Below the pieces are notes generated by a model. It did not search any database, had not been told where the DNA came from, and was given only the letters and a program-made list of their open reading frames with translations. Positions 23,320 through 61,126 of a stretch of 64,000 bases of DNA are shown in pieces. The position numbers and the translations under genes were made by a program. Origin of the DNA: Akkermansia muciniphila (GTDB taxonomy: Bacteria; Verrucomicrobiota; Verrucomicrobiia; Verrucomicrobiales; V1-33); the NCBI GenBank assembly GCA_945900785.1, contig CAMDJM010000002.1, positions 45,724 through 109,723 on the forward strand, read 5' to 3'. Position 1 is the first letter of the stretch, and every line of letters begins with the position of its first letter.

Positions 23320-23517
23320 TCAGGCGACAGGAGTGCGCTTGACCGTCAATTCGGTTTCAATGCGGGCGAGGTCCTTGCGGATCTTGGTAAGGCGGGAAGG
23401 ATTTTCCAATTGGCCGCTGCGCTGCTGAATGCGGAGACCAAAGGATTCCTGTTTGAGTTCGCGGCTTTTGGCGATTAATTCGTCAACCGAGAGGTCGCGG
23501 AGTTCACTGTTGTTCAT
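23320..23517 (-). CDS. rpmC: 50S ribosomal protein L29
   Basis: ELRDLSVDELIAKSRELKQESFGLRIQQRSGQLENPSRLTKIRKDLARIETEL. Confidence 0.95.
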   Translation of the reverse strand: MNNSELRDLSVDELIAKSRELKQESFGLRIQQRSGQLENPSRLTKIRKDLARIETELTVKRTPVA

Positions 23518-23538
23518 GGGGCGGGATCGGTTGGAGGG

Positions 23539-23958
23539 TTAAGCGGCACCAATGCGTCGGACGAAGCGGCAACGGATGCCGAGTTTCTGGGCGGCAAGGC
23601 GGAAAGACTCCCGGGCAAGGGATTCCGGCACACCGGCGGTTTCGAATAGCATATTGCCGGGACGGACCACGGCTACCCAGAACTCAGGAGCACCCTTGCC
23701 TTTACCCATACGGGTTTCAGGAGGACGGGCCGTGACTGGCTTGTGAGGAAAGATGCGGATGAAGACCTTGCCTTTACGCTTGAGATTGCGGGTGATCGCA
23801 ACACGACAGGCTTCGATCTGGGTGTTCTTGATCCATCCGCGATCCAAGGTCTGGAGACCGAATTCACCAAAGTCCACCTTGGTGCCGCGCTGGGCGTTGC
23901 CGGAACGGCTGCCCCGCATCGTCTTGCGGTGCTTTACTCTTTTGGGCTGCATTGCCAT
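23539..23958 (-). CDS. rplP: 50S ribosomal protein L16
   Basis: [18 protein letters not shown]...[14 protein letters not shown]...[34 protein letters not shown]. Confidence 0.98.
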
Positions 23959-23998
23959 AGTCTTGAAAAATAGTTAGAAGTTTGATGGAAGAGATGGC

Positions 23999-24820
23999 TT
24001 ATGCCGAGGGGGCAGCTGCTGGGGCGGCTTCTGCAGGTCGGGGACCACGGTCACCACCACCACGTTGGCCACCACCGCGTGGACCACCGCCGCTGTTCCC
24101 ACCCCGGCCACCAGGACCACCACCACCCGGACGGTCCCCGCGGGGACGTTCGCGGCGGGAATTTGGCGGAGGAGGAGGCGGAGCTTCGCCTTCAGCAAGC
24201 ACCCTGCGGTTCACCCAGCATTTGACACCGATGATACCGTAAACCGTGCGGGCCTCAGCGAAACCGTAGTCGATCGGCACACGAAGAGTTTGCAGAGGCA
24301 CTTTGCCTTCCTTATACCATTCTGCACGGGCGATGTCGGCACCTCCCAAACGGCCTGCGGCCCGGATACGAATGCCGAGAGCCCCAAATTCCATGGCCGT
24401 CTGGAGGGCGCGCTTCATGGCGCGGCGGAAAGAAATTCGGCGCTCAAGCTGGGTGGCGACGTTTTCAGCGATTAACTGGGCTTCCAATTCAGGCTGTTTG
24501 ATTTCGAAGATATCGATTTTCACCTGTTTTCCCCCGCACATCTCGCTGATGGCCGCGTTCATGACTTCGATTTCGGATCCTTTGCGGCCAATCACCAGTC
24601 CGGGACGGGCGGTGAAGAGGGTGACGCGGACACTATTCCAAGCACGTTCGATGACGATGCGGCTCAGCGCAGCGAACATCAATTTGGACTTCAGATAATG
24701 GCGGATTTTGATATCGCTGTGCAGGAAGGTAGCGAACTCTGCCTTGGGGGCATACCACTTGGAGCGCCAGTCTTTATTGACGGCGAGGCGGAAGCCGATC
24801 GGATTGATTTTCTGTCCCAT
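23999..24820 (-). CDS. rpsC: 30S ribosomal protein S3 with long P/G/R-rich C-terminal extension
   Basis: MGQKINPIGFRLAVNKDWRSKWY...IERAWNSVRVTLFTARPGLVIGRKGSEIE; tail EGEAPPPPPPNSRRERPRGDRPGGGGPGGRGG...PAEAAPAAAPSA. Confidence 0.96.
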   Translation of the reverse strand: MGQKINPIGFRLAVNKDWRSKWYAPKAEFATFLHSDIKIRHYLKSKLMFAALSRIVIERAWNSVRVTLFTARPGLVIGRKGSEIEVMNAAISEMCGGKQVKIDIFEIKQPELEAQLIAENVATQLERRISFRRAMKRALQTAMEFGALGIRIRAAGRLGGADIARAEWYKEGKVPLQTLRVPIDYGFAEARTVYGIIGVKCWVNRRVLAEGEAPPPPPPNSRRERPRGDRPGGGGPGGRGGNSGGGPRGGGQRGGGDRGPRPAEAAPAAAPSA

Positions 24821-24851
24821 AGAATCGTGTCAGTGTGAATGTTGTCCGGGC

Positions 24852-25241
24852 TTATTCAGCGGCGGCGGAATTGGAAACGTGTTTGCGGCCTTTGACCTTG
24901 GGCTCGGGTTTTTCGTCGGAAACGATAACCATGAGGTGGGCCATTGGCTTGCGGATGGCGGCGGAGGATCCCTTGGCCAACGGCATCATGCGTTTGTGAA
25001 CGGGACCATGATTGGCAACGGCGGATTTCACGATCAACGTGTCAGGGTTGAGATCGAAGTTGTGCTCGGCATTGGCCACGGCTGACTTGAGGGTCTTGGT
25101 GAACAGCACGGCAGCCTTCTTAGGGGTGAAGGTGAGCAGGCTCAGGGCTTCGCCGACGGGCATGCCGGTGATTTCGCGGGCCACATCACGCGCTTTGAGC
25201 GGGGAGATGCGGATGTATTTGGAGATGGCTTTGACGTCCAT
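24852..25241 (-). CDS. rplV: 50S ribosomal protein L22
   Basis: YIRISPLKARDVAREITGMPVGEALSLLTFTPKKAAVLFTKTLKSAVANAEHNFDLN...RMMPLAKGSSAAIRKPMAHLMVIV. Confidence 0.95.
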   Translation of the reverse strand: MDVKAISKYIRISPLKARDVAREITGMPVGEALSLLTFTPKKAAVLFTKTLKSAVANAEHNFDLNPDTLIVKSAVANHGPVHKRMMPLAKGSSAAIRKPMAHLMVIVSDEKPEPKVKGRKHVSNSAAAE

Positions 25242-25250
25242 GACTGATAG

Positions 25251-25958
25251 TTACTTTAAAGTTGAGATTGTTTCGGGTTTGGCCTGATCGCCGATCCGGA
25301 GGGTGCCAGCGGGATTGGCGGAAGTCATCAGCACGCCGGCGAACCTGCCGCGCACATCAACCACCAAACCGGTGGCGACGGTTTGCTCCGCGCGGACGAT
25401 ACGCATTGGAGTTCCAAGGCGGAGTCCACTTTCGGAGCCGGTATTGATTACTGCAAGTCCAAGATCATCTTTGAGGGAAATGACTTTGGCTGCATCAAGG
25501 GCAACGGGAGGCATGGAAGTTTCAGCCTTGCCCGCGACGATTGATTTATTGGCCGCCGATAGTTCCTGCTGCAGGCGGGTGCGGGCGGCGGCATCCGGAT
25601 GATCCCCGAGAAAGGGGATCGCGGCTTCAGAAAGAGAGACCATTCGCTCTGTGAGTTCCTTCGCCCGGCGGTCAGCCAGGCGATAGTCCGCCACTGCAGC
25701 GATGAGACGTTCCTGGAGGGGGCGCAACTCTGGTTTGAGGCCTGCAAGTCCCAGCGTTTCGGTCTGGAGCTTAAGTTGCGCATTTTCCTCCCGGAGAGAC
25801 TCTACGGCAGCGTTGGCATTAGCCAAGCTCTGGGCGAGTTTTACCGTGACTTCACCTCCGGGGGCAGTCGCCTCCTGCCCCACGGCCAACCCGAACCCGA
25901 AGACCGCACAAAGTGCGGAACCGGCGAAGGCAGGTGGAATGGAGCGCGAAGTGGTCAT
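25251..25958 (-). CDS. Exported coiled-coil protein of unknown function embedded in the S10 operon
   Basis: Signal-peptide-like N-terminus (AFAGSALCAVFGFGLAVGQE), coiled coil NANAAVESLREENAQLKLQTETL, C-terminal beta-rich GLRLGTPMRIVRAEQTVATGLVVDVRGRFAGVLM; 9-nt gap to rplV and 22-nt gap from rpsS. Confidence 0.8.
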   Translation of the reverse strand: MTTSRSIPPAFAGSALCAVFGFGLAVGQEATAPGGEVTVKLAQSLANANAAVESLREENAQLKLQTETLGLAGLKPELRPLQERLIAAVADYRLADRRAKELTERMVSLSEAAIPFLGDHPDAAARTRLQQELSAANKSIVAGKAETSMPPVALDAAKVISLKDDLGLAVINTGSESGLRLGTPMRIVRAEQTVATGLVVDVRGRFAGVLMTSANPAGTLRIGDQAKPETISTLK

Positions 25959-25980
25959 GAGGAGAATGGAGATGCGTGAA

Positions 25981-26259
25981 TTACTTGGTGACCTTGACGG
26001 TAGTCGCTCCGTGACCTTTGAAGGTGCGGGTAGGAGAGAATTCGCCGAGACGGTGCCCTACCATGTTTTCCGTGACGAAAACGCTGATGAAGTCTTTCCC
26101 GTTGTGCACGAGGAAGGTGTGGCCAACAAAATCAGGAGAGACGGTTGACGCGCGGGCCCATGTTTTGATGGGGCGCTTCTGGCCACTGTCGTTCATTTTG
26201 TCGATTTTCACCAGGAGTTTCTGGTTGATGAAAGGACCTTTTTTGAGGGATCTGCCCAT
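25981..26259 (-). CDS. rpsS: 30S ribosomal protein S19
   Basis: [23 protein letters not shown]...[54 protein letters not shown]. Confidence 0.98.
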
Positions 26260-26298
26260 GTTTTTAGACGGTTAAAGAGATTAGGGGTGGAGCGTGGC

Positions 26299-27144
26299 TT
26301 ACTTGCCCTTCTTGGCGTTGCGGCGCTGCACGATGAAGCGGTCCGTCTTGTGATATTTCTTGCGGGTCTTCTCTCCCTTGGCGTGACCCCATGGGCTGAG
26401 AAGGTGCTGGCGGCCACCACCGGATTTGGAGCGGCCTTCACCACCACCGTTGGGGTGATCGACTGGGTTCATGGTCATACCGCGGACGGTAGGACGGACT
26501 CCCATCCAGCGGGTGCGGCCGGCTTTGCCAGAGACAACGTTCATGTGTTCGCTGTTTCCAACCGTGCCGATTGTTGCATAGCATTCCTGGCGGATCTTGC
26601 GGATTTCACCGGAAGGCATTTTCATGAGGGCGTAGTCCCCCTCGCGGTTGTTCAACATGACTGACTGGCCAGCGGAGCGGGCGACGCGGCCACCTTGACC
26701 GGCTTTCAGTTCAACGTTATGCACAGCGGTGCCGAGAGGGATGGAGCGGAGAGGGAGGGCATTGCCAACTTCAGGAGCGACCTTTTCGCCAGCGATGACG
26801 GTCATTCCGGCAACGAGGTGATTGGGAGCAAGGATGTAGGCTTTGGTGCCATCTTCATATTTCAGGAGGGCAATGCGGGCGGTGCGGCCGGGATCGTATT
26901 CGATCGCTTCCACGTTGGCAGGCATGTCACGCTTAAGGCGCTTGAAGTCGATGATGCGATATTTGCGCTTATGGCCACCGCCGATGTGACGGCAGGTGAT
27001 AACACCTTGATTGTTGCGGCCACCGCTGCGCTTTTTGACGTCGAGCAGTGATTTTTCAGGCTTCTTTTTGGAAAGCGCGGAAAGATCGGGATGCTCCTTG
27101 TAGCGGTTGGTGGGAGTATAGGGTCGGAAGGTCTTGAGTGCCAT
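26299..27144 (-). CDS. rplB: 50S ribosomal protein L2
   Basis: [22 protein letters not shown]...[26 protein letters not shown]...[39 protein letters not shown]. Confidence 0.98.
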
Positions 27145-27190
27145 GAGAGTGGATCAGGTTGGCAGTGGAAAGGTGGGTGGAAAAGGGAGA

Positions 27191-27472
27191 TTAGACCAAG
27201 TCGATGGTTTCACCTTCAGCAAGGCGGACGATGGCTTTCTTCCAGTGATTGGTGCGGCCGGTCTGGGCCCCGCGGCGACGGGCTTTGCCATCGTAGTTGC
27301 AGGTGCGGACGGCAGTCACTTTTTTACCGAAGATAGTGGAGATGGCATTCTTGATCTCGAGCTTGTTGGCTTTGGGATCGACTTCGAATACGTATTCGTT
27401 GTTCAGCTCGCCGAGAATGGTGGCCTTTTCGCTGAGGCGGATGTTTTTAATGACAGTATAGACGTCTTTCAT
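27191..27472 (-). CDS. rplW: 50S ribosomal protein L23
   Basis: YTVIKNIRLSEKATILGELNNEYVFEVDPKANKLEIKNAISTIFGKKVTAVRT. Confidence 0.96.
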   Translation of the reverse strand: MKDVYTVIKNIRLSEKATILGELNNEYVFEVDPKANKLEIKNAISTIFGKKVTAVRTCNYDGKARRRGAQTGRTNHWKKAIVRLAEGETIDLV

Positions 27473-28080
27473 AAGGCGGTCCTCCGGGAGATGGTTTCGA
27501 GGGCGTCAGCAGTGACGATGATCTTGCGGTAGTTGAGGAGATGCTCGGTGTTGACCTCGTTGGCGGTCATGAGCAGGCACGCGGCATAGTTGCGGCCGGC
27601 GAGGTAGGTTTGCTCATCGAAGGCGGCAGCGATGATGAGGACTTTCGGGGAAACCACAATGGCGTTCAAGGTGGCCACGAAGGATTTGGTCTTGCCGTCG
27701 GCCACGGAAAAACCGGGCACGGTGATAACATCCTGCATTTTGATACGCTCGGAAAGAGCTTTTTTGAAGGCGATTTTTTTCGTCTTCTTGGAAACCTTCT
27801 TCGAGTAATCGCGGGGCTTTGGTCCGTGGGCGACACCACCACCGACGCGGGTGGGGGAGCGGCGCTCACCGGCACGGGCGTTACCGGTGCCTTTTTGGCG
27901 GTAGAGTTTTTTATTGGAACCACGGACTTCCCCGCGGGTCTTGGTGCAGGCGGTGCCGCTGCGGCGATTGGCCTGCATGGCCACCACGACGTCATGGACG
28001 GTCTGGGTGTAGCGGCTGTTTTCGACGACGCTGATGTTAGCGGCCTTGGCTGATTCGAGGGTGAGCACTGAAGATGCCAT
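27469..28080 (-). CDS. rplD: 50S ribosomal protein L4
   Basis: [77 protein letters not shown]. Confidence 0.97.
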
Positions 28081-28112
28081 ATTATTAGTCCTTTCCGGAG
28101 TTCAGATGGGGG

Positions 28113-28760
28113 TTATTTGGCCTCTGGAGCGGGGCGCTTTTTGGCAGGGCGAATCACGACAAGGCTATTTTTAGCCCCGGGGATACTTCCGCTGATGAAG
28201 ATGATGTTATCGTCAGGACGGCTGCCGACGATCTGGAGATTCTGGGTAGTGCGGCGGTCGCAGCCCATGTGGCCGGGCATTTTTTGGTTTTTCCAAACAC
28301 GGCCAGGGGTGAGGCGGCAACCGATGGCGCCGGTGCGGCGGTGCATCATGGAACCGTGGGTCATGCGGAGACCACCGAAGTGGTAGCGCTTGACGACGCC
28401 GGCGAAGCCTTTGCCCTTGGTTTCCCCGATAACGTCAACCCATTGACCGGTGGCGAAGTGGGTGGTGTCGAGCTTGGTGCCCAGCGCAGGAGCGCTGCCG
28501 GCTTCGACGCGGAATTCACGGGCGTGATATTTGGGAGCGGCACCTGCCTTTTTGAAGTGGCCGATCTCTGGTTTGTTGGAACGGCTTTCACGCTTGTCGA
28601 TGAAACCGACCTGAACGGCAGAGTAGCCATCGGATTCGGTATTCTTGATTTGTGTTACTTCGTTCTGACTGACGTCGACAACGGTGACGGCAACGGCTTT
28701 GCCTTTGTCGTCGTAGATGTGGGTCATGCCCAATTTTTTGCCTAAAAGTCCGAGGCTCAT
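28113..28760 (-). CDS. rplC: 50S ribosomal protein L3
   Basis: GLLGKKLGMTHIYDDKGKAVAVTVVDVSQNEVTQIK...KGFAGVVKRYHFGGLRMTHGSMMHRRTGAIG. Confidence 0.97.
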   Translation of the reverse strand: MSLGLLGKKLGMTHIYDDKGKAVAVTVVDVSQNEVTQIKNTESDGYSAVQVGFIDKRESRSNKPEIGHFKKAGAAPKYHAREFRVEAGSAPALGTKLDTTHFATGQWVDVIGETKGKGFAGVVKRYHFGGLRMTHGSMMHRRTGAIGCRLTPGRVWKNQKMPGHMGCDRRTTQNLQIVGSRPDDNIIFISGSIPGAKNSLVVIRPAKKRPAPEAK

Positions 28761-28801
28761 GATGATAATGCTCAGTAGTGACAGCGGGGAGCGTGTCGGG
28801 T

Positions 28802-29110
28802 TTAAATCTTGATGGAAATATCGACACCGGCGGGGAGATTGAGCTTCTTCAACTCATCCACGGTGCGGGCGGTAGGATCAACGATGTCCAGAAGGCGCTT
28901 GTGAGTGCGGATTTCGAACTGCTCGGCGGATTTCTTGTCAACGTGGACGGAACGGTTCACGGAGAACTTTTCGATCCGGGTCGGAAGCGGCACGGGGCCG
29001 GCGACGCGGGCTCCGGTTCGTTTGGCGGTGTCCACGATCTCCGTAACACTACGGTCGAGAGTGCGGAAGTCATAGGCCCGGAGGCGGATGCGGATGCGCT
29101 GGTTTTGCAT
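28802..29110 (-). CDS. rpsJ: 30S ribosomal protein S10
   Basis: [73 protein letters not shown]. Confidence 0.98.
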
Positions 29111-29143
29111 GGGAATGGAATTGAAAGAAAAGGTGTGTAAGGG

Positions 29144-31309
29144 TTAGACCCCACCGCGGCGGCTGCCGCCACGGGCTTCGACGACTTGTTCGACGATGTT
29201 GTTGGGAACGGCTTCGAAATGGCTGGGCTGCATGCTGTAGGACGCGCGGCCGGAGGACAGGGTGCGGATGGCGGTGGAATAACCGAACATCTCGGAGAGG
29301 GGGACTTCCGCATTCACGATGGAGGCGTTTTGACGGCTTTCCATACTGTTGATGCGTCCACGGCGACGGCTCAGGTCTCCCATGATGTCGCCCTGATATT
29401 CGTCAGGGGTGGTGCACTCCACGCCCATGATGGGTTCGAGGAGCTGGCACTTGGCTTTTTTGAAGGCGTCCTTCATGGCGAAGATCGCCGCCATTTTAAA
29501 GGCATTTTCGTTGGAATCGACATCGTGGAAGGAGCCATCCACCAGTTCAACGTGCACATCGACCACGGGGTAACCGGCGATGATGCCATTGGTGGTGGCT
29601 TCGAGAATGCCATCCATGGAAGGTTTGATGTATTCCTTCGGAATGGTGCCGCCAACAATTTTGTTCTCAGTGGTGATGCCCTTGCCCCGCTCGCTGGGAT
29701 ACATTTTCAGGACGACGTGGCCGTATTGGCCGCGACCGCCGGATTGCTTGACCAACTTGCCTTCGCCGTCGGCGGGGACGGTGGTGCATTCACGATAGGC
29801 GATCTGAGGCTTACCGGAATCGACCTCGACCTTGAATTCACGAAGCATGCGGTCCCGGATGATTTCGAGGTGCAACTCGCCCATGCCGGCGATGATGGTT
29901 TGGCCGGTTTCTTCGTCTGTGCGGACAACGAAGGTGGGATCTTCATCGGAGAGGCGCTGCAGGGCGACCGCCATTTTCTCCTGGTCGGCTTTGGTCCGGG
30001 GCTCGATGGACATCGAGATTACAGGATCCGGGAAAGTGGGGGGCTCGAGGAGCATTTCGGCGCTCTCGTCACAAAGCGTATCACCGGTGCGCAGTTCCTT
30101 CAAACCGACGATGGCAGCGATGTCTCCGGAATAGCAGGTCTCAATATCCGTGTGCTGGTTTGCCTGAATCTGAATCAGGCGGCCCACACGCTCTCTTTTG
30201 CGGGTGCGGGGGTTGTAAATTTGGTCACCCTTGGAGATTTTGCCACGATAGACGCGGAAGAAGACGAGCTTGCCGACGAATTTGTCAGACCAGAGTTTAA
30301 AGCCGAGGCTGACAAATTTTCCGTTATCGTCGGGGGAAACTTCGATCTTCTTGTCGAGATCGTCGGCGTCGTGGCCGATCTGGGGCTGGATGTCGAGTGG
30401 ATTAGGCAGGTAATCGACTACTGCGTCAAGGAGCGCTTGAACTCCCTTGTTTTTGAAGGCAGAGCCACCGGCAACGGGAACAATTTGATTGGCAATCACC
30501 GCGCGGCGCAGAGCGGATTTGACGTCCTTGACTGTGATGGGCTGTTCTTCGAGGAACATCATCCCGATTTGCTCGTCGACATCACATAGGGCAGCGGTGA
30601 GGTCATCGTAAGCGGCGTCTGCGATCAGCTTTTGATCTGGAGTGAGGCCAACGTATTCGTAGGTGGAGCCGAGTTTTTCAGCGTCCGAATACATGATGGC
30701 TTGTTTGCCAACGACGTCGATCACGCCTTTGAGTTGGTCCTCAGCACCGATGGGGATCAGAATGGGGTGGGCGTTGGCTCCGAGCTTGGAACGGAGTTCG
30801 CTGACGGCTTTGTTGAAGTCAGCACCGGTGCGGTCCATCTTATTGACGAAGGCCAGGCGCGGCACGTTGTATTTAGTGGCCTGACGCCAGACGGTTTCAG
30901 ACTGGGGCTGGACTCCGGCGACGCCGCAGTAAACCAGAATAACACCATCCAGCACCCGGAGGGAGCGTTCCACTTCGGCGGTGAAATCGACGTGGCCAGG
31001 TGTGTCAATGATGTTGACCCTCATTTCTTCGCCTTCAAACATTTTGAAGACACCGGGATTCGGGAGCTGTTTCCACTTGGTGGTGACAGCAGCGGAAGTA
31101 ATCGTAATGCCGCGTTCTTTTTCCTGCTCCATCCAGTCGGTGGTGGCAGCGCCGTCATGGACTTCACCGATGCGGTGAATCATGCCGGTGTAGAATAGGA
31201 TCCGCTCCGTCAACGTCGTCTTGCCGGCATCGATGTGCGCGGAGATCCCGATATTCCGGGTGCGCTCCAGCGGATATGCGCGGTTAGGACTGTTACGGGG
31301 ATCGGACAC
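29144..31309 (-). CDS. fusA: Elongation factor G
   Basis: GTG start; [56 protein letters not shown]. Confidence 0.98.
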
Positions 31310-33542: not shown

Positions 33543-36500
33543 TCAGTGGGAAGCGGGGGCTTCGTTTTCGATGGCTTGCTGGGCGGCTTTTCTGCCGAAA
33601 GTGTAAAAGACCGTGGGGGTGACGCCAAGACCCAGCAGCGTGCTGGTGATGAGTCCACCCACAATGACCACAGCGACGGGGTGCAGAATTTCCTTGCCCG
33701 GCTGGTCGCCGGCGAGGACGAGGGGGAGCAGGCCGATCCCGGCGGAGATCGCAGTCATGAGCACGGGAACCAGCCGTTCCCGGGTGCCGCGGATGACCAT
33801 GGCTTTGGAGAAGTTCTCACCTTCGTGCTGCATGAGGTGGAGATAGTGGGAGATGAGCATGATGCTGTTCCGCGCGGCGACGCCAGCCACGGCGATAAAT
33901 CCTACGAGCGTGGCGATGCTGATATTGTTCAATTTCAGCCAAGTGAACACCAGTCCACCGACCAGAGCGAGGGGGATATCGAAGAGCACCTGAATCGCAA
34001 AAAAGGCCGAGCGGAAGTAACCGTAGAGCAGGAAGGCAATGACGATGAAAACCACGCTGCTGAGGACGGCAATGCGCTGGGAGGCGTCCTTCTGGGCCTG
34101 GAATTCACCTTCGTAGCTGACGAAATAACCTTCCGGCAGTTTCACTTTTTCGGCGACCTTGTTTTGCAATTCCACCACCAGGGTGCCGACGTCGCGGACG
34201 CTGGGTTTGATGGCGAGGGCAAAGCGGCGTTGGGCATTTTCACGGAAAATAACATTGGGGCCTTTGGCCTCGCGGACATCGGCGATGAGGCGCAGGGGAA
34301 TGCGCTGCACGCCGCCGTGGCCATCCGGGACTTCGATGGGAAGTTCGGCCAGCTTGTCAGGGGATTCACGCCATTCCTGGGGCAGGCGGACCGCGAGATC
34401 AATCTCCCGCTGGCCTTCGCGGAGGGCGGCGACATTTTCTCCGCCAAGGAGGGTGGCGAGGGTGGCATTAAGCTTGCCCGGGGTGATGCCGTAGGCTGCG
34501 CAGCGCTCGCGATTGGCTTCGATACGCAGTTGGGCGATGACGGATTGCTGGTCGAGTTTGCAGTCTTCAAAGCCTGGGATGGTTTTGGCGATGCCCTGAA
34601 TTTCGATGCCGAGTTGCCGGAGCTTGTCGAGGTCGGGACCGAAGATCTTCAAGGCAACGGGCGCGGAGACACCGCTCAACATGTGGCCGATGCGGTCCGC
34701 CAGCGGTCCCATGACCACGCTGAAGGTGCCGGGCACGCTCTGCACTTTTTTGCGGACATCAGCCAGGATTTCAGCGCGGCTTCGTTGTGGGACGGCGGTG
34801 GTTGGGACGGCGCGGAAATCCACGTCAAACTCCGCAGTGCTCACCGGCACGACGTGGTCGCCGCGTTCCGCCCGGCCAAGACGGCGGCCGACTTTGTGCA
34901 CCTCCGGAATGCTCAGAAGCTGCTGTTCTATCACATCAGCAATATTGTTGGTTTCCTCCAGGGAGGTGCCCGGCGCGGCGGTCATGGAGACGAGCGCGGT
35001 TTCCTCCTGGAATTTGGGCAGGAAGTCCTTGCCCATTTTTGGATAGAGCATGAAGGCACCAATCACCATCATGCCAACAATGCCCAGCATCAGAAAGGGC
35101 TGGGCGAGACCGAAGCGCAGGAGGGTGTGTTCCAGCAACCACTTCATGCTGCGCGTGATGAATCCGTCCTTGTGATGGCTGCCCGCTTTGGGCCGCAGGA
35201 GGAACGAGCACAGCACAGGAATGGTGGTGAGCGAGACGACGAACGAGGCCACCATGGAAATGATGGTAGCGATAGCGATCGGTGAGAAAAGCCGGCCTTC
35301 CACGCCGCTGAGTCCCAGCAGGGGCAGGAACACGAGAATGATGAGCAAGGTGGCGTAGAGGATGGAATTCCGCACTTCCCCGGAGGCGCGCGCGATGACT
35401 TCGAGACGGGGATGTGGCTTGGGCAGGGCGGCGTTTTCGCGCAGGCGGCGGAAGACGTTTTCCACATCGACAATGGCATCGTCCACCACCATTCCGATAG
35501 CGACTGCAAGGCCGCCAAGAGTCATGGAGTTGACGGAAATCCCGAACCATTTGAAGACCAGCATGGTGATGCCAAAGGAGAGCGGCATGGCCATGAGGGT
35601 GATGAAGGTGGTGCGGAAATTCAGGAGGAACAGGAAGATCACCAGCGTCACCATGATGGCTCCATCGCGGATGGCTTCCTTGAGGTTGCCGATGGCGTGT
35701 CCGATGAAATCACCCTGGCGGAATAACACAGTGGCCTCGACTCCGGCGGGCAGGGTTTTTTGCAGTTCCGCGAGGGCTTCTTCGATTTTGGCTGTAAGGG
35801 AGAGGGTGTCGAATCCGGGCGCTTTGGTAATACTCATGACGACACCGCGCTTGCCATTGACGCTGCCATCGCCGCGCATGGGTTCCACGCCCCACTCGAC
35901 TTTCGCGACATTCGCGATGGTAATAGGCCGGTCGCCGGTTTTTTTCACCACGGTGCCCGCGATGTCTTCCAACTGCACGGACATCGCGAGATTTCTCACC
36001 ATGATTTCCGTGGTGCTGCTGTTGATGAAGCCCCCGGTGGAATTGGAAGAAGCTTCCCTGGCCGCAGTGACCAATTCTTCAAAGGTGACATCGTGCGCGG
36101 CCATGCGATTCGGCTCCGGCTGCACCTGGATCTGTTTGATGCCGCCGCCCATGTTGAGGACTTCGGCAATGCCCGGGATGCTTTGCAGCCGGGGCCGGAT
36201 GGTCCAATCCGCCACCGTCCTGACATCCCGTGGCAGCATCTTGCCATCCCGGCTGCTTACGCCGACGAGGAGGATTTCCCCCATGAGGGAAGCGGCAGGC
36301 GTGAGGAAGGGCTCCACACCCTGCGGCAGCGAACCACGCACGCCGGCGAGGCGTTCCTGCACGAACTGCCGGGCTTGGTAAAGATCCGTGCCCCATCCGA
36401 ACTCGGCGTAAACCAGCGAAAGGGAGACGTCGGAGTTCGAGCGTAACCGGGTCAGGCCAGCAACACCCAGCAGGGAGCGCTCGATGGGCTGGGTGATGTT

Positions 36501-36689
36501 GATTTCCACCTCCTCCGGAGCCAGGCCGGGGGACTCGGTGAGGATAATGACGGTAGGTTTAGTCAGGTCTGGCAGGACTTCCACCGGCAGGGTCAGGGTG
36601 GTCTGCACGCCCAGCACCATGAGGAGCAGGGCCAGGGCGGTGACAATGGCCCGGTTGTGCAGGGAAAAATGAATCAGTTTGTTCAGCAT
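33543..36689 (-). CDS. CusA/CzcA family heavy-metal-type RND efflux permease
   Basis: Likely start MLNKLIHFSLHNRAIVTALALLLMVLG; LTKPTVIILTESPGLAPEEVE, IGMVVDDAIVDVENVFRRL, GVAARNSIMLISHY. Confidence 0.93.
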   Translation of the reverse strand: MLNKLIHFSLHNRAIVTALALLLMVLGVQTTLTLPVEVLPDLTKPTVIILTESPGLAPEEVEINITQPIERSLLGVAGLTRLRSNSDVSLSLVYAEFGWGTDLYQARQFVQERLAGVRGSLPQGVEPFLTPAASLMGEILLVGVSSRDGKMLPRDVRTVADWTIRPRLQSIPGIAEVLNMGGGIKQIQVQPEPNRMAAHDVTFEELVTAAREASSNSTGGFINSSTTEIMVRNLAMSVQLEDIAGTVVKKTGDRPITIANVAKVEWGVEPMRGDGSVNGKRGVVMSITKAPGFDTLSLTAKIEEALAELQKTLPAGVEATVLFRQGDFIGHAIGNLKEAIRDGAIMVTLVIFLFLLNFRTTFITLMAMPLSFGITMLVFKWFGISVNSMTLGGLAVAIGMVVDDAIVDVENVFRRLRENAALPKPHPRLEVIARASGEVRNSILYATLLIILVFLPLLGLSGVEGRLFSPIAIATIISMVASFVVSLTTIPVLCSFLLRPKAGSHHKDGFITRSMKWLLEHTLLRFGLAQPFLMLGIVGMMVIGAFMLYPKMGKDFLPKFQEETALVSMTAAPGTSLEETNNIADVIEQQLLSIPEVHKVGRRLGRAERGDHVVPVSTAEFDVDFRAVPTTAVPQRSRAEILADVRKKVQSVPGTFSVVMGPLADRIGHMLSGVSAPVALKIFGPDLDKLRQLGIEIQGIAKTIPGFEDCKLDQQSVIAQLRIEANRERCAAYGITPGKLNATLATLLGGENVAALREGQREIDLAVRLPQEWRESPDKLAELPIEVPDGHGGVQRIPLRLIADVREAKGPNVIFRENAQRRFALAIKPSVRDVGTLVVELQNKVAEKVKLPEGYFVSYEGEFQAQKDASQRIAVLSSVVFIVIAFLLYGYFRSAFFAIQVLFDIPLALVGGLVFTWLKLNNISIATLVGFIAVAGVAARNSIMLISHYLHLMQHEGENFSKAMVIRGTRERLVPVLMTAISAGIGLLPLVLAGDQPGKEILHPVAVVIVGGLITSTLLGLGVTPTVFYTFGRKAAQQAIENEAPASH

Positions 36690-36690
36690 G

Positions 36691-37860
36691 TTAGCGCACT
36701 CCGGGGTTCGGGGTTTCCAGGGCGGGCTCATCCGCCTTTGGCTTGCGCCGCATGGCTGTGACCAGCAGCACGAGCAACAGGCCATTCGTGATCAGGGAAA
36801 AAATCGTCAGGGAGGAATTTTCCCCGCCGTGGTCATGTCCATCGCCGGCTCCAGCGGCGGCGCGTTTGGCTTTTTGATCTGGGGTGACTTCGCTGCCGTC
36901 TTCGTTGTGTTCATGGCCGTGGGCGGCATCCAGCGCGGCTTTAAGCGAGACGCTGCCTTTTCCGGCAAAACCGAGCGAGTAGGCGCCGATGGTGACGACT
37001 TCATCGCCCGCCAGCAGGCCGCTGGTGATCTCCACACTCTGATCATTCATGGCCCCGACCTGCACCGGGATCCTGACAAAGGTGTGCTTCAGCGACTCAT
37101 CGTAGTGGCGGCGGTAAACGACGCGGCTGGTGACATCGCCTTGGAGGGCAATGCGGGGGATGCTCATCACGCCCTCACGTTTTCCCAGCACGATGGAGAA
37201 CTCGGCCCTCATGCCCGGACGCAGCAGGTGCTCAGGATTCGGGACATGGAAAGCCGCTTCCAGAGTGCCGCTGGCGCTATCCGCATGGGTGCCGAGGTGG
37301 ACCATGGTGCTTTCAAAAACCTTGTCTCCCGCCGCATGGGCGCGGATGTGAGCAGTCTGGCCGGCTTTGAGTTTTCCGGCGAGATGTTCCGGCACGGCGG
37401 CGGCGGCTTCCACGGTGTCGAGATCCAAAATCTCGATCAGGCTGGTATCAGGCGTCACGGGTTGCCCGACTGCGACGTTGACCTGGGAAATCAGACCGCT
37501 GATCGGCGCGGTGATTTTGATGACAGGCGGGGGATCGCCAGGCTGGCGGCTCTCGATCCAGAGTAGTTCGTCGCCTTGGTGGGTCTCCACGTGGGGCCGC
37601 GCGAGGAGGGAATGGACGCGGCCGGGAATGCGGGTGCTGACGATGGCGGAATTTCCTGGCAGGACTTCGATGCGCCCCAGGGCAAAGGCGGTTTCCTCGA
37701 AGTCGATTTCCTCCACTTCGACGGTTTCGATCTTGAGGTTTTTCTCGCCGGTTTCATCGAGAATCACGGTGTTGGCAGCTTCTTCCGGCGTGACGGCAGC
37801 CTGCAATCCTGACGGAACGACAGAAAGCAAAAGGGAAAGGAGTAAGAGGTGTTTTTTCAT
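36691..37860 (-). CDS. RND efflux periplasmic adaptor (CzcB/HlyD family)
   Basis: MKKHLLLLSLLLSVVPSGLQA signal; IPGRVHSLLARPHVETHQGDELLWIESRQ, ITAPISGLISQVNVAVGQPV; His-rich C-terminus. Confidence 0.9.
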   Translation of the reverse strand: MKKHLLLLSLLLSVVPSGLQAAVTPEEAANTVILDETGEKNLKIETVEVEEIDFEETAFALGRIEVLPGNSAIVSTRIPGRVHSLLARPHVETHQGDELLWIESRQPGDPPPVIKITAPISGLISQVNVAVGQPVTPDTSLIEILDLDTVEAAAAVPEHLAGKLKAGQTAHIRAHAAGDKVFESTMVHLGTHADSASGTLEAAFHVPNPEHLLRPGMRAEFSIVLGKREGVMSIPRIALQGDVTSRVVYRRHYDESLKHTFVRIPVQVGAMNDQSVEITSGLLAGDEVVTIGAYSLGFAGKGSVSLKAALDAAHGHEHNEDGSEVTPDQKAKRAAAGAGDGHDHGGENSSLTIFSLITNGLLLVLLVTAMRRKPKADEPALETPNPGVR

Positions 37861-37890
37861 GGGTGGCATGGAGTCCTGGCAAGATAAATT

Positions 37891-39108
37891 TTAGCGTCCC
37901 ATCGCTGCCTGATAGCGGATGCGGGCGAGGTGAAAAGCGCGGAGGGCGTCGAGATTGGCCTGCTCGATGGCGAGGCGATTCCCGCGGGAGCGGAGGACAT
38001 CCGCGAGGAGGATTCCGGGCTGGGATTGTTGATAGAAGGCGGCGATTTTTTCTTCCAGACTGCGCGCTTTGGGCAGGAGGACGGTGGCCGTTTCGTCGAG
38101 GATGCGGCGGGCGGCTTTCATTTCCCCAAGGGCGGCCATGGCTTCGGCGCGCACATTGGCTGCCAGAGCTTCGGCTTCTTTTTCGGCCCGTGCGGTGGCG
38201 GCCTGGGCTTCCTGAATTTTGCCTTCGTTTTTATTCCAAAAGGGGAGCGGCAGGGAGAATTTCAGACCTATGATGCCGTCTGTTTGCAGGCCATCCGGCG
38301 CATCTTCCGCGCGGTCCACTTCGGCGTTGAGGCCCACGCCGGCGTCGGCCCATTGGTTGACTTTGGCCAAGGCAATCCCCTGCCGCGCGGCGTCGATTCT
38401 GGCCTGTGCAGCGAGATAATCGGCGCGGGCACCGAGATTGGGACTGGCGGTGGATGGCAGTGATGCATCAGGCAGGCTGCCCGTGAATTCCACGGTATCC
38501 GAAACCGGCACTCCCAACAGGGGGCGGGCCTCACCGGTGAGGGTGGCACGCTCGGATTCCAGAGTTAGGAGATCCAGGGAGAGCTGCGAGGCTTCGAGTT
38601 CAAACTGGGTGGCCTCCAGCCCCGAGCCTTCGGCGGAGGCGGCGATCTTCACGGCGGTGGCCGCCAATTCCCGGCTGTTGGCGATTTGCTTTTCCTTCAA
38701 CGCCCGGCTGGCTTCCAGGCTGAGGATTTTCACCACCACGCTGCGCAGCGCGGAGCCCAGCTTGACCTCCGCAGCCATGACTTCTGCCTCTGCCGTGGCG
38801 ACTTCGGCCTGCGAGAGGGCTTTCTCCAGGCGCAAGCGGTTCGTGAGAGGGAAATGCTGCACAAAGCCGACGCCGAAGGAGAACTCGCGCCCCCGGACAT
38901 TGGGGCGCAGCTCGGATTCCAGCTCAGGATTGGAAAGCCGGCCGGAGCCCAGTAAACGGGCACGGGCTTCCTCAATACTGAAGCGGGCTGCAGCCAGGTC
39001 AGGATTGTGCGCTATGGCGTAGGTGACGGCGGAATCGATGGTGAAGCGCGCGGCCATGCTGGTGGCAGCGGTGGCGAAAAAGGCTAGAATTAATAGTGAC
39101 CGGAACAT
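37891..39108 (-). CDS. TolC/CzcC family outer membrane factor
   Basis: Signal MFRSLLILAFFATAATSMA; NPDLAAARFSIEEARARLLGSGRLSNPELESELRPN; duplicated coiled-coil layout; adjacent to adaptor/permease. Confidence 0.88.
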   Translation of the reverse strand: MFRSLLILAFFATAATSMAARFTIDSAVTYAIAHNPDLAAARFSIEEARARLLGSGRLSNPELESELRPNVRGREFSFGVGFVQHFPLTNRLRLEKALSQAEVATAEAEVMAAEVKLGSALRSVVVKILSLEASRALKEKQIANSRELAATAVKIAASAEGSGLEATQFELEASQLSLDLLTLESERATLTGEARPLLGVPVSDTVEFTGSLPDASLPSTASPNLGARADYLAAQARIDAARQGIALAKVNQWADAGVGLNAEVDRAEDAPDGLQTDGIIGLKFSLPLPFWNKNEGKIQEAQAATARAEKEAEALAANVRAEAMAALGEMKAARRILDETATVLLPKARSLEEKIAAFYQQSQPGILLADVLRSRGNRLAIEQANLDALRAFHLARIRYQAAMGR

Positions 39109-39278
39109 GGAAAGTATATTGATTGATATTGGCACTGCTACTGCGGGTGCCTTAATGATGCTCGTGAGGCATTGGACCTGCAGCAACCCGTCTTGTTTTA
39201 GTCCCGCATTGAGGCGGCAGCGGCGTGCTGATGGCACGGCAGGGTGGTGGGGGGCAGGATTCTCCGGAATATTGGAAA

Positions 39279-55766: not shown

Positions 55767-58280
55767 TCAAAATCCAGCTGCATTCTCCCATGCCCAGACG
55801 CCGCCTAGGGTTGGTTTCTGAGTTTTGTGGTCCCAGACGATCGGATGCCAGCCAAACTGACCCGCCTTGGTGATGATTAAGGCCCGGCCATATTGGGGGT
55901 GTTCAGCGAGGACTTTGTCGTGTTGCTTTTCCTGCTCCCAGCGGTCTTTGGGGTCGGCCAGTAATATGCCATTTTCCTTGGAGCGGCCATGCACTTTGAT
56001 CACAAAGTCAGGGTAAAACCGGGCACCGGTGGGGAGGATCAGGTTGACGCTGTAGGGTTTCATCCGCTCGTTACGGTGCCACCAGTCGATGACACTCGCC
56101 GGGGCTTTGTCCAGGTCCTCCGCGAAGGCTTTTTCCCACAGGTTCATGCCGGGAGGATAAATTCCGTAAATGTTCCTCGGGGACTGGGTTACAGTGGATT
56201 CGAATTCGAAGGCTTCCGGCAAATCCGCCGCAAAAGCCACGGTGGCATGTTGGCCGATGGCTTTTTTCTGGGCTTCCTTGAGCAGGCCAGGACGTGCGAC
56301 CAGCATGCTGTTCAAGAGTTGCGACACCTGGGCTGGTGCCGTCAATTGAGTGAGCCCCTTGGATTCCAAAACTTGTTTCAGGCGGGCCAGTAATAGTGCC
56401 CGCAGGTCCTTCGGATGGAACAGGGTATTGGCGCACAGCACGTCAAAAGCCCGGCGGGCCACCTCCGCCACTGACAGATCGGCCTTGGTAAACTTCAGCA
56501 TCAACTGGCCAGTGAAAACTTCCAAAGTCCGTTGCGTGACTTGGACGGAGGAAACCATTCCAGTTATGAGAGTTTCACTTTCCACAAAAAAGTGCTTGGC
56601 ACAATCCTCATCCAGCGTCTCCACCTCCTCCGGGATAGTCATCATCTGAAAGCGCCGGGGCACTCCGGGTTTCAGGGCATAGCGGTGTTTGTTTCCAGGC
56701 TTCAGCATTCCCTCTTTCCCCACGCCGGTGATGGCTTCGATTAAACCGGGAGGAGGGCCAGGGTTCTCTGGTGGCATGGGTTCCGGCGGCAATGTCCCGC
56801 CATCCAAGTCCAGTTCTCCGGGTTCCCAGTGATCAGGGCGGCCACTTCCGGCACCGCTTGGAGAATTCCCGGCGCTCTCTTTTCCAGCGGGCGGTCCCCC
56901 GCCGGTTGGTCCCCAGGAAGTAATGGGGAAAAGCTGGGTTTCCCCGCCTTTGCCCAGCAGTTGCAGGCCATTCACCCCACCGACACACATCACGGCCACG
57001 GTGGGGGACGTCTTGTCCATTTCCGTCTTCATGGCGTTCATCCGCACGCCTGCGGCTTGCAGACCGGATTGGCCATCCGGGTTGGCCAGCAGCACATAGC
57101 CATAGTTCAGCGCCTCCGGCACGGTTTTGCTTTGGAGCCGGCGGTGCACCCGCAGGATCCGGCCCAGCAATTGCACGCCGAAGTCCTCATCCTTCGCTGC
57201 CCGCGTGCTCACCAAGGTAAATGCCCGGGGCGCATCGAATCCCAGCGCCACCGCCATTTTGAAAATCAGCACTTCCACCTTTTCGTTATTGGCCAGGCCC
57301 ATCAGGCCAGCGTCCGGCTCTTCCGCCGTGTGGGTGGCGATGGCTTCCTCCCGGTAGCCACACTGAAGCAATTTCTCCTTCGCCCGCGCGACACTATCTT
57401 TCTTTTTTGAGTCCACCTGCACCATCAGGAGCGGAGTCAGGGAAATACCGGCTTCCTTCAGCTTTTCCTTCAAATCCGCCTGGATGCCCGCCGCGCAACG
57501 CAGGCAGGTCATTTCCAGATCCACCAGACCTTCGCTCGCTGGATCGGGAACAAAGCTGATGCACTTCACCCCGGCTTTGACCAGCCCGGCATCCACCGCA
57601 TCCGTCCGGCTCACTGCGATGCGGTGCACCTTCGCAATGCCACAGGCTTCCTTCCATTTGGTGATGTCCTTGTCATCCGGGGTGGCCGTGATCAGCACGG
57701 TGTATTCCGGGGCCAGCACCTCCTTGTAGAAGGCGGTGGCCTGGCTCTGCCCCTGGAAGCTGTGGTGGGCTTCATCCACCACGATACCGATCCGCAGCCC
57801 CATCTTCCGCAACCCAGCCACCAGAGTATCCGTCCCCGGGGCTTGCTCGCTGTCCTGCCGGGCTTTCCGTTGCTCTTTGGACTTTACCGCAACGGTCTGC
57901 CAGGTCGTCACAAAGACATCGCCCGCCCGGCTGCCGGAAATCTGCCGATCCTGCGCCAGGTCCCGCACATTCAGTCCTGCGCATTGTTCCTTCAAAAATG
58001 AAACCGTCTGCCCGGTGACTCCCCTGAAAGGCGCAAACCAAAACCACACCACCGGTTCCTTTTGGGAAAAAGCCTCCAGGAGATGCGCTGCAATCAGCGT
58101 CTTGCCGCTCCCGGTGGGTGCCTCCAGGAGCAGGCAACCCTGATGCGAGGAAACCGCCTGCCGTTCCGCCGCTCCGGCTCCGGCCGCCAGGGCATCATAT
58201 TGCTGGCGGGCATAGTCCATGTGGTAGCGGCCATTGGCCACTGCTTGTTCCTGATAGCGTTTCAGCGTCTTGATCTTCAT
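55767..58280 (-). CDS. DEAD/DEAH helicase-nuclease, type III restriction (Res)-like
   Basis: LLLEAPTGSGKTLIAAHLLE Walker A, VDEAHHSFQG, LITATPDD, C-terminal YPDFVIKVHGRSKENGILLADPKD (PD-(D/E)xK-like). Confidence 0.85.
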   Translation of the reverse strand: MKIKTLKRYQEQAVANGRYHMDYARQQYDALAAGAGAAERQAVSSHQGCLLLEAPTGSGKTLIAAHLLEAFSQKEPVVWFWFAPFRGVTGQTVSFLKEQCAGLNVRDLAQDRQISGSRAGDVFVTTWQTVAVKSKEQRKARQDSEQAPGTDTLVAGLRKMGLRIGIVVDEAHHSFQGQSQATAFYKEVLAPEYTVLITATPDDKDITKWKEACGIAKVHRIAVSRTDAVDAGLVKAGVKCISFVPDPASEGLVDLEMTCLRCAAGIQADLKEKLKEAGISLTPLLMVQVDSKKKDSVARAKEKLLQCGYREEAIATHTAEEPDAGLMGLANNEKVEVLIFKMAVALGFDAPRAFTLVSTRAAKDEDFGVQLLGRILRVHRRLQSKTVPEALNYGYVLLANPDGQSGLQAAGVRMNAMKTEMDKTSPTVAVMCVGGVNGLQLLGKGGETQLFPITSWGPTGGGPPAGKESAGNSPSGAGSGRPDHWEPGELDLDGGTLPPEPMPPENPGPPPGLIEAITGVGKEGMLKPGNKHRYALKPGVPRRFQMMTIPEEVETLDEDCAKHFFVESETLITGMVSSVQVTQRTLEVFTGQLMLKFTKADLSVAEVARRAFDVLCANTLFHPKDLRALLLARLKQVLESKGLTQLTAPAQVSQLLNSMLVARPGLLKEAQKKAIGQHATVAFAADLPEAFEFESTVTQSPRNIYGIYPPGMNLWEKAFAEDLDKAPASVIDWWHRNERMKPYSVNLILPTGARFYPDFVIKVHGRSKENGILLADPKDRWEQEKQHDKVLAEHPQYGRALIITKAGQFGWHPIVWDHKTQKPTLGGVWAWENAAGF

Positions 58281-58294
58281 GGCTGGGGGACAGT

Positions 58295-59299
58295 TTAAAA
58301 AAGTTTCGCCTCAGGGTGGAAATGACAGGGGGGGAACCCGTGCGGCAGTTCCGTGATGATCACATCCACCGGCACCAGGATCCCGTTTTCCCCCACGATG
58401 ACATTGGCCGGATGCACATCCCACACCCCAAACCGGCCGATGCGCCAGGAGGTGGAATCTTCATAACCGATTCCCTTCCACTTCATTTGCACCAGGCCCA
58501 GGGCCTTCATCCCCTCTTGGATCTCCTCCATCGTGGCCCGGCGGCCACGCACATGAGGTTGTGAGGTCACGATGCGCCAGCCGCCCTTGCCTTCCCGCCA
58601 CAGGCCGAGCAGTTGGATGTCGTCCTGAAAAAGTTCGTTTTGCCGCGTCAATCGTTCAAGATATTCCTGCGGTAACGCATTCAGCAACAACGGCCTGCCG
58701 TCCTCCCAATACACGGTGTAGCCAGCCAGGCCCGGCTTGGTATATTTGATCCAGCGTTCCGTTTCCGCCTGGTAAACCACATCATGTTCCCGGCCACCTG
58801 CGGCGTTGGGGCCGGGCGACTCCACGATCATCCTCTGGGCATCGCACCAACGGCGGAGTTGGCTCCATTGGCGCTCCGGCTCTTCCCAATCATCTTCATC
58901 GGCGTCCCCATCAAAAGTGCCATCTGGGTATAGGCCTCCGCTGAGGTAGTTCTGTGCCCCGGCAAGCGTGCCTCCCGCAGGGCCTGTTTCTGTTGGTCCG
59001 TCATAGCGTGCACTTTGTCCTGAAATCATCTCCTCCGCAAGCTCCTCCTCGTCGAATATCACATCCTCCCCGATGTCTTCCTCCGGCATCCCGCTCAGGT
59101 CCAGTAGCTCCATCTCCACCGGCCCCAGCTGCATCTCTGCCTGGCTCCGCGCCCGGCTGAGGATACTGCAATGCCGCGAGCCCCAGGCCAGCTTCTCCTG
59201 GTTCAGCAGGGACGCCTCGAACGGCAGGTCCGGGCTGTTCCACAGCATCCCGTCCCACAGGAGGCGCTTTCCCTGCGCGTTCGTGAAGACAATGTCCAT
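58295..59299 (-). CDS. Putative polyvalent-type protein-kinase-like protein between mod and res
   Basis: HDVVYQAETERWIKYTKPGLAGYTV...YLERLTRQNELFQDDIQLLGL...GWRIVTSQPHVRGRRATMEEIQEGMKALG...FGVWDVHPANVIVGENGILVPVDVI; catalytic-loop-like DVHPAN and VD. Confidence 0.6.
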   Translation of the reverse strand: MDIVFTNAQGKRLLWDGMLWNSPDLPFEASLLNQEKLAWGSRHCSILSRARSQAEMQLGPVEMELLDLSGMPEEDIGEDVIFDEEELAEEMISGQSARYDGPTETGPAGGTLAGAQNYLSGGLYPDGTFDGDADEDDWEEPERQWSQLRRWCDAQRMIVESPGPNAAGGREHDVVYQAETERWIKYTKPGLAGYTVYWEDGRPLLLNALPQEYLERLTRQNELFQDDIQLLGLWREGKGGWRIVTSQPHVRGRRATMEEIQEGMKALGLVQMKWKGIGYEDSTSWRIGRFGVWDVHPANVIVGENGILVPVDVIITELPHGFPPCHFHPEAKLF

Positions 59300-59303
59300 C
59301 CTG

Positions 59304-60950
59304 TCAGGCCCGCCCCCTTCCCAGGCCGAATTTCAGCGCCAGGCTCTGCGGGATGGTTTCCACCTGGATGTGTTCCGCCCCGGCGAGCCGCTCCGCCATC
59401 AGCCCAGGCTGCCAGGTGTAAACGATCACCCCGGCCAGCCCCTTCGCCCGCTTGAGGATCTCCCGGGCGCTCGCTGCTTTCACCTGCGGCACATAACATA
59501 GCGCCCCCTCCGCATCCTGCGCCCAGTGCAGTGCCGCCGGAGCGTAAGCCATCAGGCCCTCCCGGTGCATCAATTGCAGCGCGGTCCACACCTGGCTGTG
59601 CTCGATCTCCATCAAGTCCCCCTCCGGGATCCGCCGGCACCGCAGATAGGCAAAGTCTCCGCCCAATCCAGGCTTTTCCCCATACCCCGCGATCACCCGC
59701 CGCACCCGTTCCGCGCAGACGTCCCGGCACAAGTTCTTCTCCGGTTCCTCCTCCGTCGCCTCGGTGCTGGAGACGAGGATAAACCGTCGCCTCCCTCCAT
59801 CCGCCGCATTCGCCTTCAACACCGCATGGCCCGTCGTCCCGCTCCCAGCGAAGAAGTCCAGCACGATGTCGTCAGGGCCGCAGCCGATTTGCAGAATGCG
59901 CTCCAGCAACCGGACCGGCTTGGGGGTATCAAAGGCGGTCTGGGTCCCGAAAATTTCCCGGATTTCCTTACGGGATTCGTCCGTGTGGCCAACTTCCTCG
60001 TGAGGCCACCATGTCCATGGAACAAGGCCCTCCACCTCTGATAGATAACGAATAATGCTCGGCTGAGCACTCCCATCTTTTCCCCAATAAATCCGTCCTT
60101 GCTCTTTTAGCTTCAGAAACTCTGGCTCGATAGTAGACCAACAGCGCCCTTCGGGTGGTTTGTGTTTTTTGCCACTCGGGGTGGTCACCTCATACATTTG
60201 GTTCGGCCTGAATCCTTGTGCTGTCATCGGAATCCCACGCCATCGGCCTAGTGCGTCGTTATTCGGATTCTTATAAACAGCAGCTTGATCAAAAGAGAGC
60301 GGAATTTTGCCGCTCCTTCTCTGAAACACCTCAGGCTTCGGCGAATACACCAAAACATATTCGTGGGCATCGCCTATAACGCCCCGTTTTTCCCTGGAAT
60401 AGCGCTTCTGCCAGATGCAGTTGGCCACAAAAGCCGCCTCCCCGAAAACCTGCTTCATCAGCAGGGTGAGCGCGGCCATTTCGTTATCGTCGATGTGGAC
60501 AAAAATCACCCCATCCTCCGCCAGCAATTCCTTGGCGAGGGTGAGTCGTTGGTGCATGAACTCACACCAGCGGGAGTGCCGCCACGCATCGTCCTTGTCC
60601 ACGTAGCGGTCGTTATAGACGAAGTCGCGGTTCCCTGTGTTGTAGGGCGGGTCGATGCAGATGCACTTCACCCGCCCGGCATAGGCCATGCGGAGGAAGC
60701 GCAGGGCATCGAAGTTATCCCCCTCAATGATCAGATTCCGCCACACTGCATCCGCGCCCTCCGCCCCGGCAGTGGGGGCCGTCGATAGCGCTGCATCCAA
60801 ATCCAGCGCCACAAAATCCCCATTCAGCGCTTTTTCCCGCTCCACCTCGTTCGTCTCCCAAACCAGCCCGAACCGCGTCGCATCCCGCCGGTCCCGCGCC
60901 TCCAGTAGGCGCACCAGTTCTTCGCGGGAGTAATCATCATAGCGAGGCAT
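59304..60950 (-). CDS. Site-specific DNA methyltransferase, type III Mod-like (beta class)
   Basis: CICIDPPYNTGNRDFVYND, VIFVHIDDNEMAALTLLMKQVFGEAAFVA, IVLDFFAGSGTTGHAVLKAN; likely start MPRYDDYSREELVRLLEARDRRDATRFGLVWE. Confidence 0.93.
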   Translation of the reverse strand: MPRYDDYSREELVRLLEARDRRDATRFGLVWETNEVEREKALNGDFVALDLDAALSTAPTAGAEGADAVWRNLIIEGDNFDALRFLRMAYAGRVKCICIDPPYNTGNRDFVYNDRYVDKDDAWRHSRWCEFMHQRLTLAKELLAEDGVIFVHIDDNEMAALTLLMKQVFGEAAFVANCIWQKRYSREKRGVIGDAHEYVLVYSPKPEVFQRRSGKIPLSFDQAAVYKNPNNDALGRWRGIPMTAQGFRPNQMYEVTTPSGKKHKPPEGRCWSTIEPEFLKLKEQGRIYWGKDGSAQPSIIRYLSEVEGLVPWTWWPHEEVGHTDESRKEIREIFGTQTAFDTPKPVRLLERILQIGCGPDDIVLDFFAGSGTTGHAVLKANAADGGRRRFILVSSTEATEEEPEKNLCRDVCAERVRRVIAGYGEKPGLGGDFAYLRCRRIPEGDLMEIEHSQVWTALQLMHREGLMAYAPAALHWAQDAEGALCYVPQVKAASAREILKRAKGLAGVIVYTWQPGLMAERLAGAEHIQVETIPQSLALKFGLGRGRA

Positions 60951-61126
60951 GGGAGCAGGAGGGGATGGGGTCAGAGGGTATCCGGAACGTTTCTGACCCT
61001 TCGCACGTTTCCAAAGCGTCAGACAACTGCTTTTCGTGACTCTCACCCAACGCGGAAGCGTGGCATGGCCATGTAATGTTCATGCGCTCATCCCTCATCC
61101 AACAACTCTCAGCTTCCTTTCAGGGA

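Follow-up and report, generated by a model that had tools for sequence, protein, structure and literature searches.

A gene for a probably exported protein lies between rpsS and rplV in the S10 operon, in a 64,000-nt stretch of DNA (the window), and homologues stand upstream of rplV across much of the phylum Verrucomicrobiota. The most economical reading, and by analogy the most likely one, is that the product is an exported envelope scaffold. The full account, in which a secreted scaffold of an undescribed family has been inherited vertically upstream of rplV and would be supplied in step with growth, has in our judgement about an even chance of being correct. The ORF itself, its conservation, the selection acting on it and its synteny are established below, and its domain make-up comes from prediction.

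Position and predicted expression of the ORF in the S10 operon

The rpsS–rplV junction lies in the S10 cluster, the most conserved group of ribosomal genes, and few bacterial gene neighbourhoods are as stable. The ORF found there starts with ATG and is on the same strand as its two neighbours (Table 1), separated by 22 nt from rpsS and by 9 nt from rplV. All neighbours in the surrounding S10/spc run, also on the minus strand, follow the canonical order. The sequence-only reading had described an exported-type coiled-coil gene embedded between the two ribosomal genes, which is confirmed by the coordinates, the gap lengths and homologues in relatives; its view of the product as a protein of no recognised kind, with a coiled coil and predicted to be exported, is also supported.

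Table 1. Coordinates of the ORF, its predicted domains, its neighbours and related loci
Feature	Coordinates	Strand	Description or basis
ORF, exported coiled-coil/single beta-barrel protein (export predicted)	25251..25958	-	235 aa
N-terminal signal-peptide-like segment, residues 1-29	25872..25958	-	sequence; hydrophobicity heuristic
Helical/coiled-coil region, residues 35-146	25521..25856	-	AlphaFold2 helices
C-terminal six-stranded beta-barrel, residues 157-229, conserved core	25272..25490	-	AlphaFold2, conservation, short homologues
rpsS (S19), upstream neighbour	25981..26259	-	92 aa
rplV (L22), downstream neighbour, conserved partner of ORF	24852..25241	-	129 aa
Paralogues	L140:1452-3236, L141:1324-3243, L144:2917-3693; own genome G000:C19:50267-51844 (L299)		
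Split-operon loci	L126, L137, L138, L181-L204; S19 loci L150-L178		

A consensus scan of positions 23500-29200 detected no sense-strand terminator-like site, and the sole sense-strand promoter-like match was well upstream (27144-27115). Together with the small gaps, the lack of such sites near the ORF suggests that it is co-transcribed with the S10 operon. Codon adaptation of the ORF (0.48) was below that of all 19 nearby translation genes, namely 18 ribosomal proteins and EF-G (0.56-0.76), and within the range of the other genes of the window (0.43-0.80). This indicates that output of the ORF is probably below that of the ribosomal genes and that a tight stoichiometric coupling is unlikely.

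Three other features of the window were recorded. The rpsC gene carries a long low-complexity C-terminal extension rich in Pro, Gly and Arg (23999-24200, minus strand). Between an 837-aa helicase-like ORF and a 580-aa DNA-methylase-like ORF lies a third, of 334 aa, and the group (55767-61046, minus strand) resembles a type III restriction-modification system. ORFs resembling an RND efflux pump, an adaptor and an outer-membrane channel stand in a row (33543-39237, minus strand), in what looks like an efflux operon.

Conservation, selection and inheritance

At the level of the order, a homologue was found in 56 of 57 relatives' genomes, covering 22 of 22 genera. It occupied the same slot between rpsS and rplV in 47 of the 50 relatives' loci that were read, mostly with small gaps; in the other three the contig starts near the ORF (L005), rpsS is not in the fetched upstream stretch (L009) or the contig ends (L014). 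The homologue of one genome of family f4 (G051), for example, lies at L016:1492-2277 on the minus strand. The gap between the ORF and rplV ranged among homologues from 0 to 97 nt (median 20). When named genomes were scanned with the Akkermansiaceae form of the protein, 80 loci were obtained, belonging to Akkermansia muciniphila, Akkermansia spp., Luteolibacter, a record labelled Prosthecobacter and other Verrucomicrobia, a set that shares species with the 57 relatives. The insertion was present in all 79 loci carrying both flanking genes, and the sequence piece of the 80th ends before rplV. Inspection of the rpsS–rplV intergenic content of relatives, as proposed in the sequence-only reading, thus returned intact ORFs in the same slot rather than an insertion unique to this assembly with disrupted counterparts in relatives.

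Values of dN/dS for the ORF were 0.05-0.23 in ten pairs, which points to purifying selection. These values, together with the relatives' homologues and the intact ORFs in the slot, rule out an assembly artefact or a spurious ORF. The ORF is real, old and not peculiar to the source assembly. The protein evolves fast, with 64% identity to its nearest relative compared with 97% for S19. In a mirror-tree comparison of 109 loci, its distances correlated with those of S19, L22, S3 and L2 (Spearman 0.63; maximum of 999 permutations, 0.14). Divergence of the ORF therefore keeps pace with that of ribosomal proteins, as it should under vertical inheritance.

Distribution across the phylum and linkage to rplV

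Profile A1 gave matches in 168 of 237 genomes of the class and in 123 of 243 genomes of the phylum, part of them outside the operon. On reading of the loci, many further families of the class proved to have full-length insertions, and families f13, f17, f44 and f47 to have short forms of 108-130 aa; insertions in other classes of the phylum measured about 130-320 aa. Genomes read from families f11, f12, f16, f20, f22, f24, f27, f28, f30, f38, f62, f68 and f69, and part of those from f17 and f19, had no insertion, and in families of this kind the spacer between rpsS and rplV was mostly 1-150 nt. The occurrence of several lineages without the gene at rplV indicates that it is not universally needed there.

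For an even draw across the phylum, 88 genomes were searched with the broad profile A3 and for rplV, which was found in 86. In 47 of these 86 genomes, which span 17 of 27 families, rplV was preceded on its own strand by a profile match at a distance of 12-136 nt. The draw was even over the genomes of the set rather than over independent lineages, and the profile had been derived in part from the lineages searched.

Many genomes from other classes of the phylum have an S10 operon split precisely at the rpsS–rplV junction, and the homologue mostly heads the rplV half. Among 30 chosen genomes of the phylum, 17 had no rplV in the 1.5 kb after rpsS, and in an 18th the piece ends at a contig end. 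A search for rplV in 24 split-operon or related genomes mostly found, directly upstream of it, an ORF of the helix-plus-barrel type whose N-terminus is hydrophobic. An alignment of the proteins heading rplV in split operons gave a match of 218 columns to the family profile (hhalign 99.4%, E 8e-22). The conserved linkage is to rplV rather than to rpsS and extends across the phylum. The insertion upstream of rplV probably took place early in Verrucomicrobiota, before the classes diverged.

Exceptions to the linkage were found in some f61 genomes, where the homologue lies away from rplV, in two of them beside ftsH on the opposite strand (L296, L298). Family f12 matches away from rplV (L294, L295) were considered as moved orthologues and rejected, as they look like the paralogue group instead.

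The position might be no more than a trace of history, left by one insertion before rplV of which excision is rarely neutral, with the product an ordinary envelope protein of a function unrelated to ribosome synthesis. Paralogues of the same layout at unrelated places (Table 1), the low codon adaptation of the ORF and the homologues placed elsewhere, such as those beside ftsH, would all be consistent with this. However, the gene mostly stays with rplV where the operon breaks, which chance alone would not favour, and its adjacency to rplV is kept in 17 of the 27 families. We regard this alternative as serious though somewhat unlikely.

Predicted domain structure of the protein

The ORF product has a hydrophobic segment at its N-terminus, and cleavage-like Ala/Gly sites come after it. 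By a hydrophobicity heuristic, 186 of 189 homologues have a 12-aa window of mean hydropathy >1.4 within their first 65 aa, and in 183 of the 189 the N-terminal segment is the most hydrophobic of the whole protein. The AlphaFold2 model (pLDDT 83.7) has helices at residues 35-72, 76-117 and 123-146 and six strands within residues 158-228, the strands of this barrel having a pLDDT of about 97. Conservation is 0.56 in the barrel and 0.27 in the C-terminal tail, the least conserved region. The short homologues comprise a predicted signal peptide and the barrel only, and are homologous to the long form (hhalign 98%, E 1.7e-13). Since some families keep just these two parts, the barrel appears to be the core of the protein and the helical stalk optional.

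A Foldseek search of the PDB with the full-length model returned first the FlgT-containing LPHT ring 8z5n and FlgT 3w1e (E 4e-4), then F1-/V-ATPase barrels, with MreC 2j5u at 2.5e-3. For the short form, a model built from a separate alignment of that form had its strands in the same order and matched MreC 7eft, FlgT (3w1e at 3.6e-3) and ATPase barrels. These matches between modelled and known folds point to a widespread small barrel, by which function is not fixed. Searches of Pfam and NCBIfam assigned no family to the ORF or its homologues and gave coiled-coil noise; two sub-family MreC models matched one member each (E 1e-4 and 3e-3). Sequence search of the PDB also gave mostly coiled-coil noise.

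The sequence-only reading had noted an MreC-like layout with a beta-rich C-terminus. Structure prediction agrees with this at the level of fold, with a coiled coil followed by an MreC-type barrel in the predicted models and 2j5u and 7eft among the matches; the likeness does not extend to identity with MreC, as there is no family match and one barrel only.

Proposed function and alternatives

According to the scaffold reading, the gene would have been inserted into the S10 operon just before rplV, early in the history of Verrucomicrobiota, and descended vertically since. We infer that the product is exported to the periplasm by a Sec-type signal, that its helical stalk forms a dimer or oligomer and that its single FlgT/MreC-type barrel binds to a cell-wall or outer-membrane partner. 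By analogy with MreC, the protein may then be an envelope scaffold working like half of MreC, and its place in the operon could keep supply in step with growth. Some coupling is favoured by the retention of the gene next to rplV in split operons as well. The tie of an envelope protein to ribosome synthesis put forward in the sequence-only reading is kept as a hypothesis. The stronger proposal, that of a dedicated phylum-wide device in which a half-MreC-like secreted protein, retained beside rplV in the S10 operon from a time before the classes separated, matches envelope-scaffold supply to ribosome synthesis, seems rather doubtful.

Two other readings were weighed. The product of rplV lines the ribosomal exit tunnel, and a constant neighbour of this gene might encode a membrane-tethered ribosome or translocon factor, with an uncleaved N-terminal anchor by which ribosomes or the Sec machinery would be linked to the membrane. 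Such a role is very unlikely: the N-terminus is more anchor-like than a cleaved signal in L119, L123 and L124, but most N-termini look cleavable by the heuristic used, the conserved barrel would sit on the outer side, and ribosomal proteins are far better conserved than the ORF protein. A secretion monitor, in which arrest in the exported ORF would regulate the downstream rplV much as SecM acts ahead of secA, would fit the signal sequence and the tight position upstream of rplV. It is highly improbable, as the tail, where an arrest motif would lie, is the least conserved region and a folded, conserved barrel is not expected in an arrest leader.

A search of the literature found no description of an rpsS/rplV insertion in Verrucomicrobia and no experiment on the ORF protein, and the gene seems to be undescribed so far. 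A study of PVC signature proteins concerns a different protein (CT421.2) and makes no mention of S19 or L22 (PMC3444138). In Verrucomicrobium spinosum, a transposon study reported 100 essential proteins of unknown function, and saturated transposon data and targeted mutagenesis exist for this species (PMC12283558). Among conserved Verrucomicrobiota proteins of unknown function, the ORF product is an obvious target, and it is testable in V. spinosum. As a non-ribosomal, probably exported protein encoded between rpsS and rplV across much of the phylum, it is a candidate link between growth and the envelope. Its family is also usable as a marker of Verrucomicrobiota, a phylum that includes the gut bacterium Akkermansia muciniphila.

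Comparison with known systems

The gene order around the ORF is that of the canonical S10 operon (rpsJ-rplC-rplD-rplW-rplB-rpsS-rplV-rpsC-rplP), from which it differs by one additional gene at the rpsS–rplV junction, whose product is non-ribosomal and probably exported. With SecM it shares the arrangement of a predicted-exported ORF directly upstream of the gene that it would regulate; however, its family has no conserved C-terminal arrest motif, and an arrest-peptide leader was rejected on the low conservation of the tail.

MreC (PF04085), a periplasmic cell-shape scaffold, is similar in having an N-terminal membrane or export segment, a coiled coil and small six-stranded barrels. In E. coli MreC, the coiled coil is followed by two such barrels, and the protein is a dimer that assembles into filament-like arrays in crystals (PMC8804602), whereas the predicted model of the ORF has one. 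PF04085 gave no match to the ORF at E up to 10 and was not one of the 25 families listed for 26 homologues at E up to 1, and alignment of the ORF family with the relatives' own MreC gave 43% probability (hhalign). The chance that the ORF is the organism's MreC is close to nil despite the shared signal, helix and barrel layout and the MreC structures among the fold matches, since these results and the single barrel argue against it and the true MreC of the source genome lies elsewhere (G000:C128, PF04085 match at E 1.3e-29). Three Akkermansia-type genomes included in the PF04085 search had no match to that family and kept the ORF.

FlgT, a flagellar H-ring protein with the C-terminal domain PF16538, supplies the top-ranking structures among the PDB fold matches, the likeness being to the fold of that domain. 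Membership of this family was rejected: PF16538 gave weak sub-threshold matches in 12 of 26 members (best E 0.0089, below the curated cut-off) and none in the genomes of 27 relatives. The ORF corresponds to only one FlgT domain, with modelled helices in place of the N-terminal and middle domains, and has no flagellar context.

Stalk-plus-barrel paralogues, often in tandem pairs, occur at unrelated loci and are covered by no Pfam family. Those of Verrucomicrobiota, including one in the source genome (Table 1), combine a helical stalk with a homologous barrel (hhalign 97.7% over about 100 columns), and differ from the ORF in their loci, their longer stalks and their anchor-like N-terminal segment.
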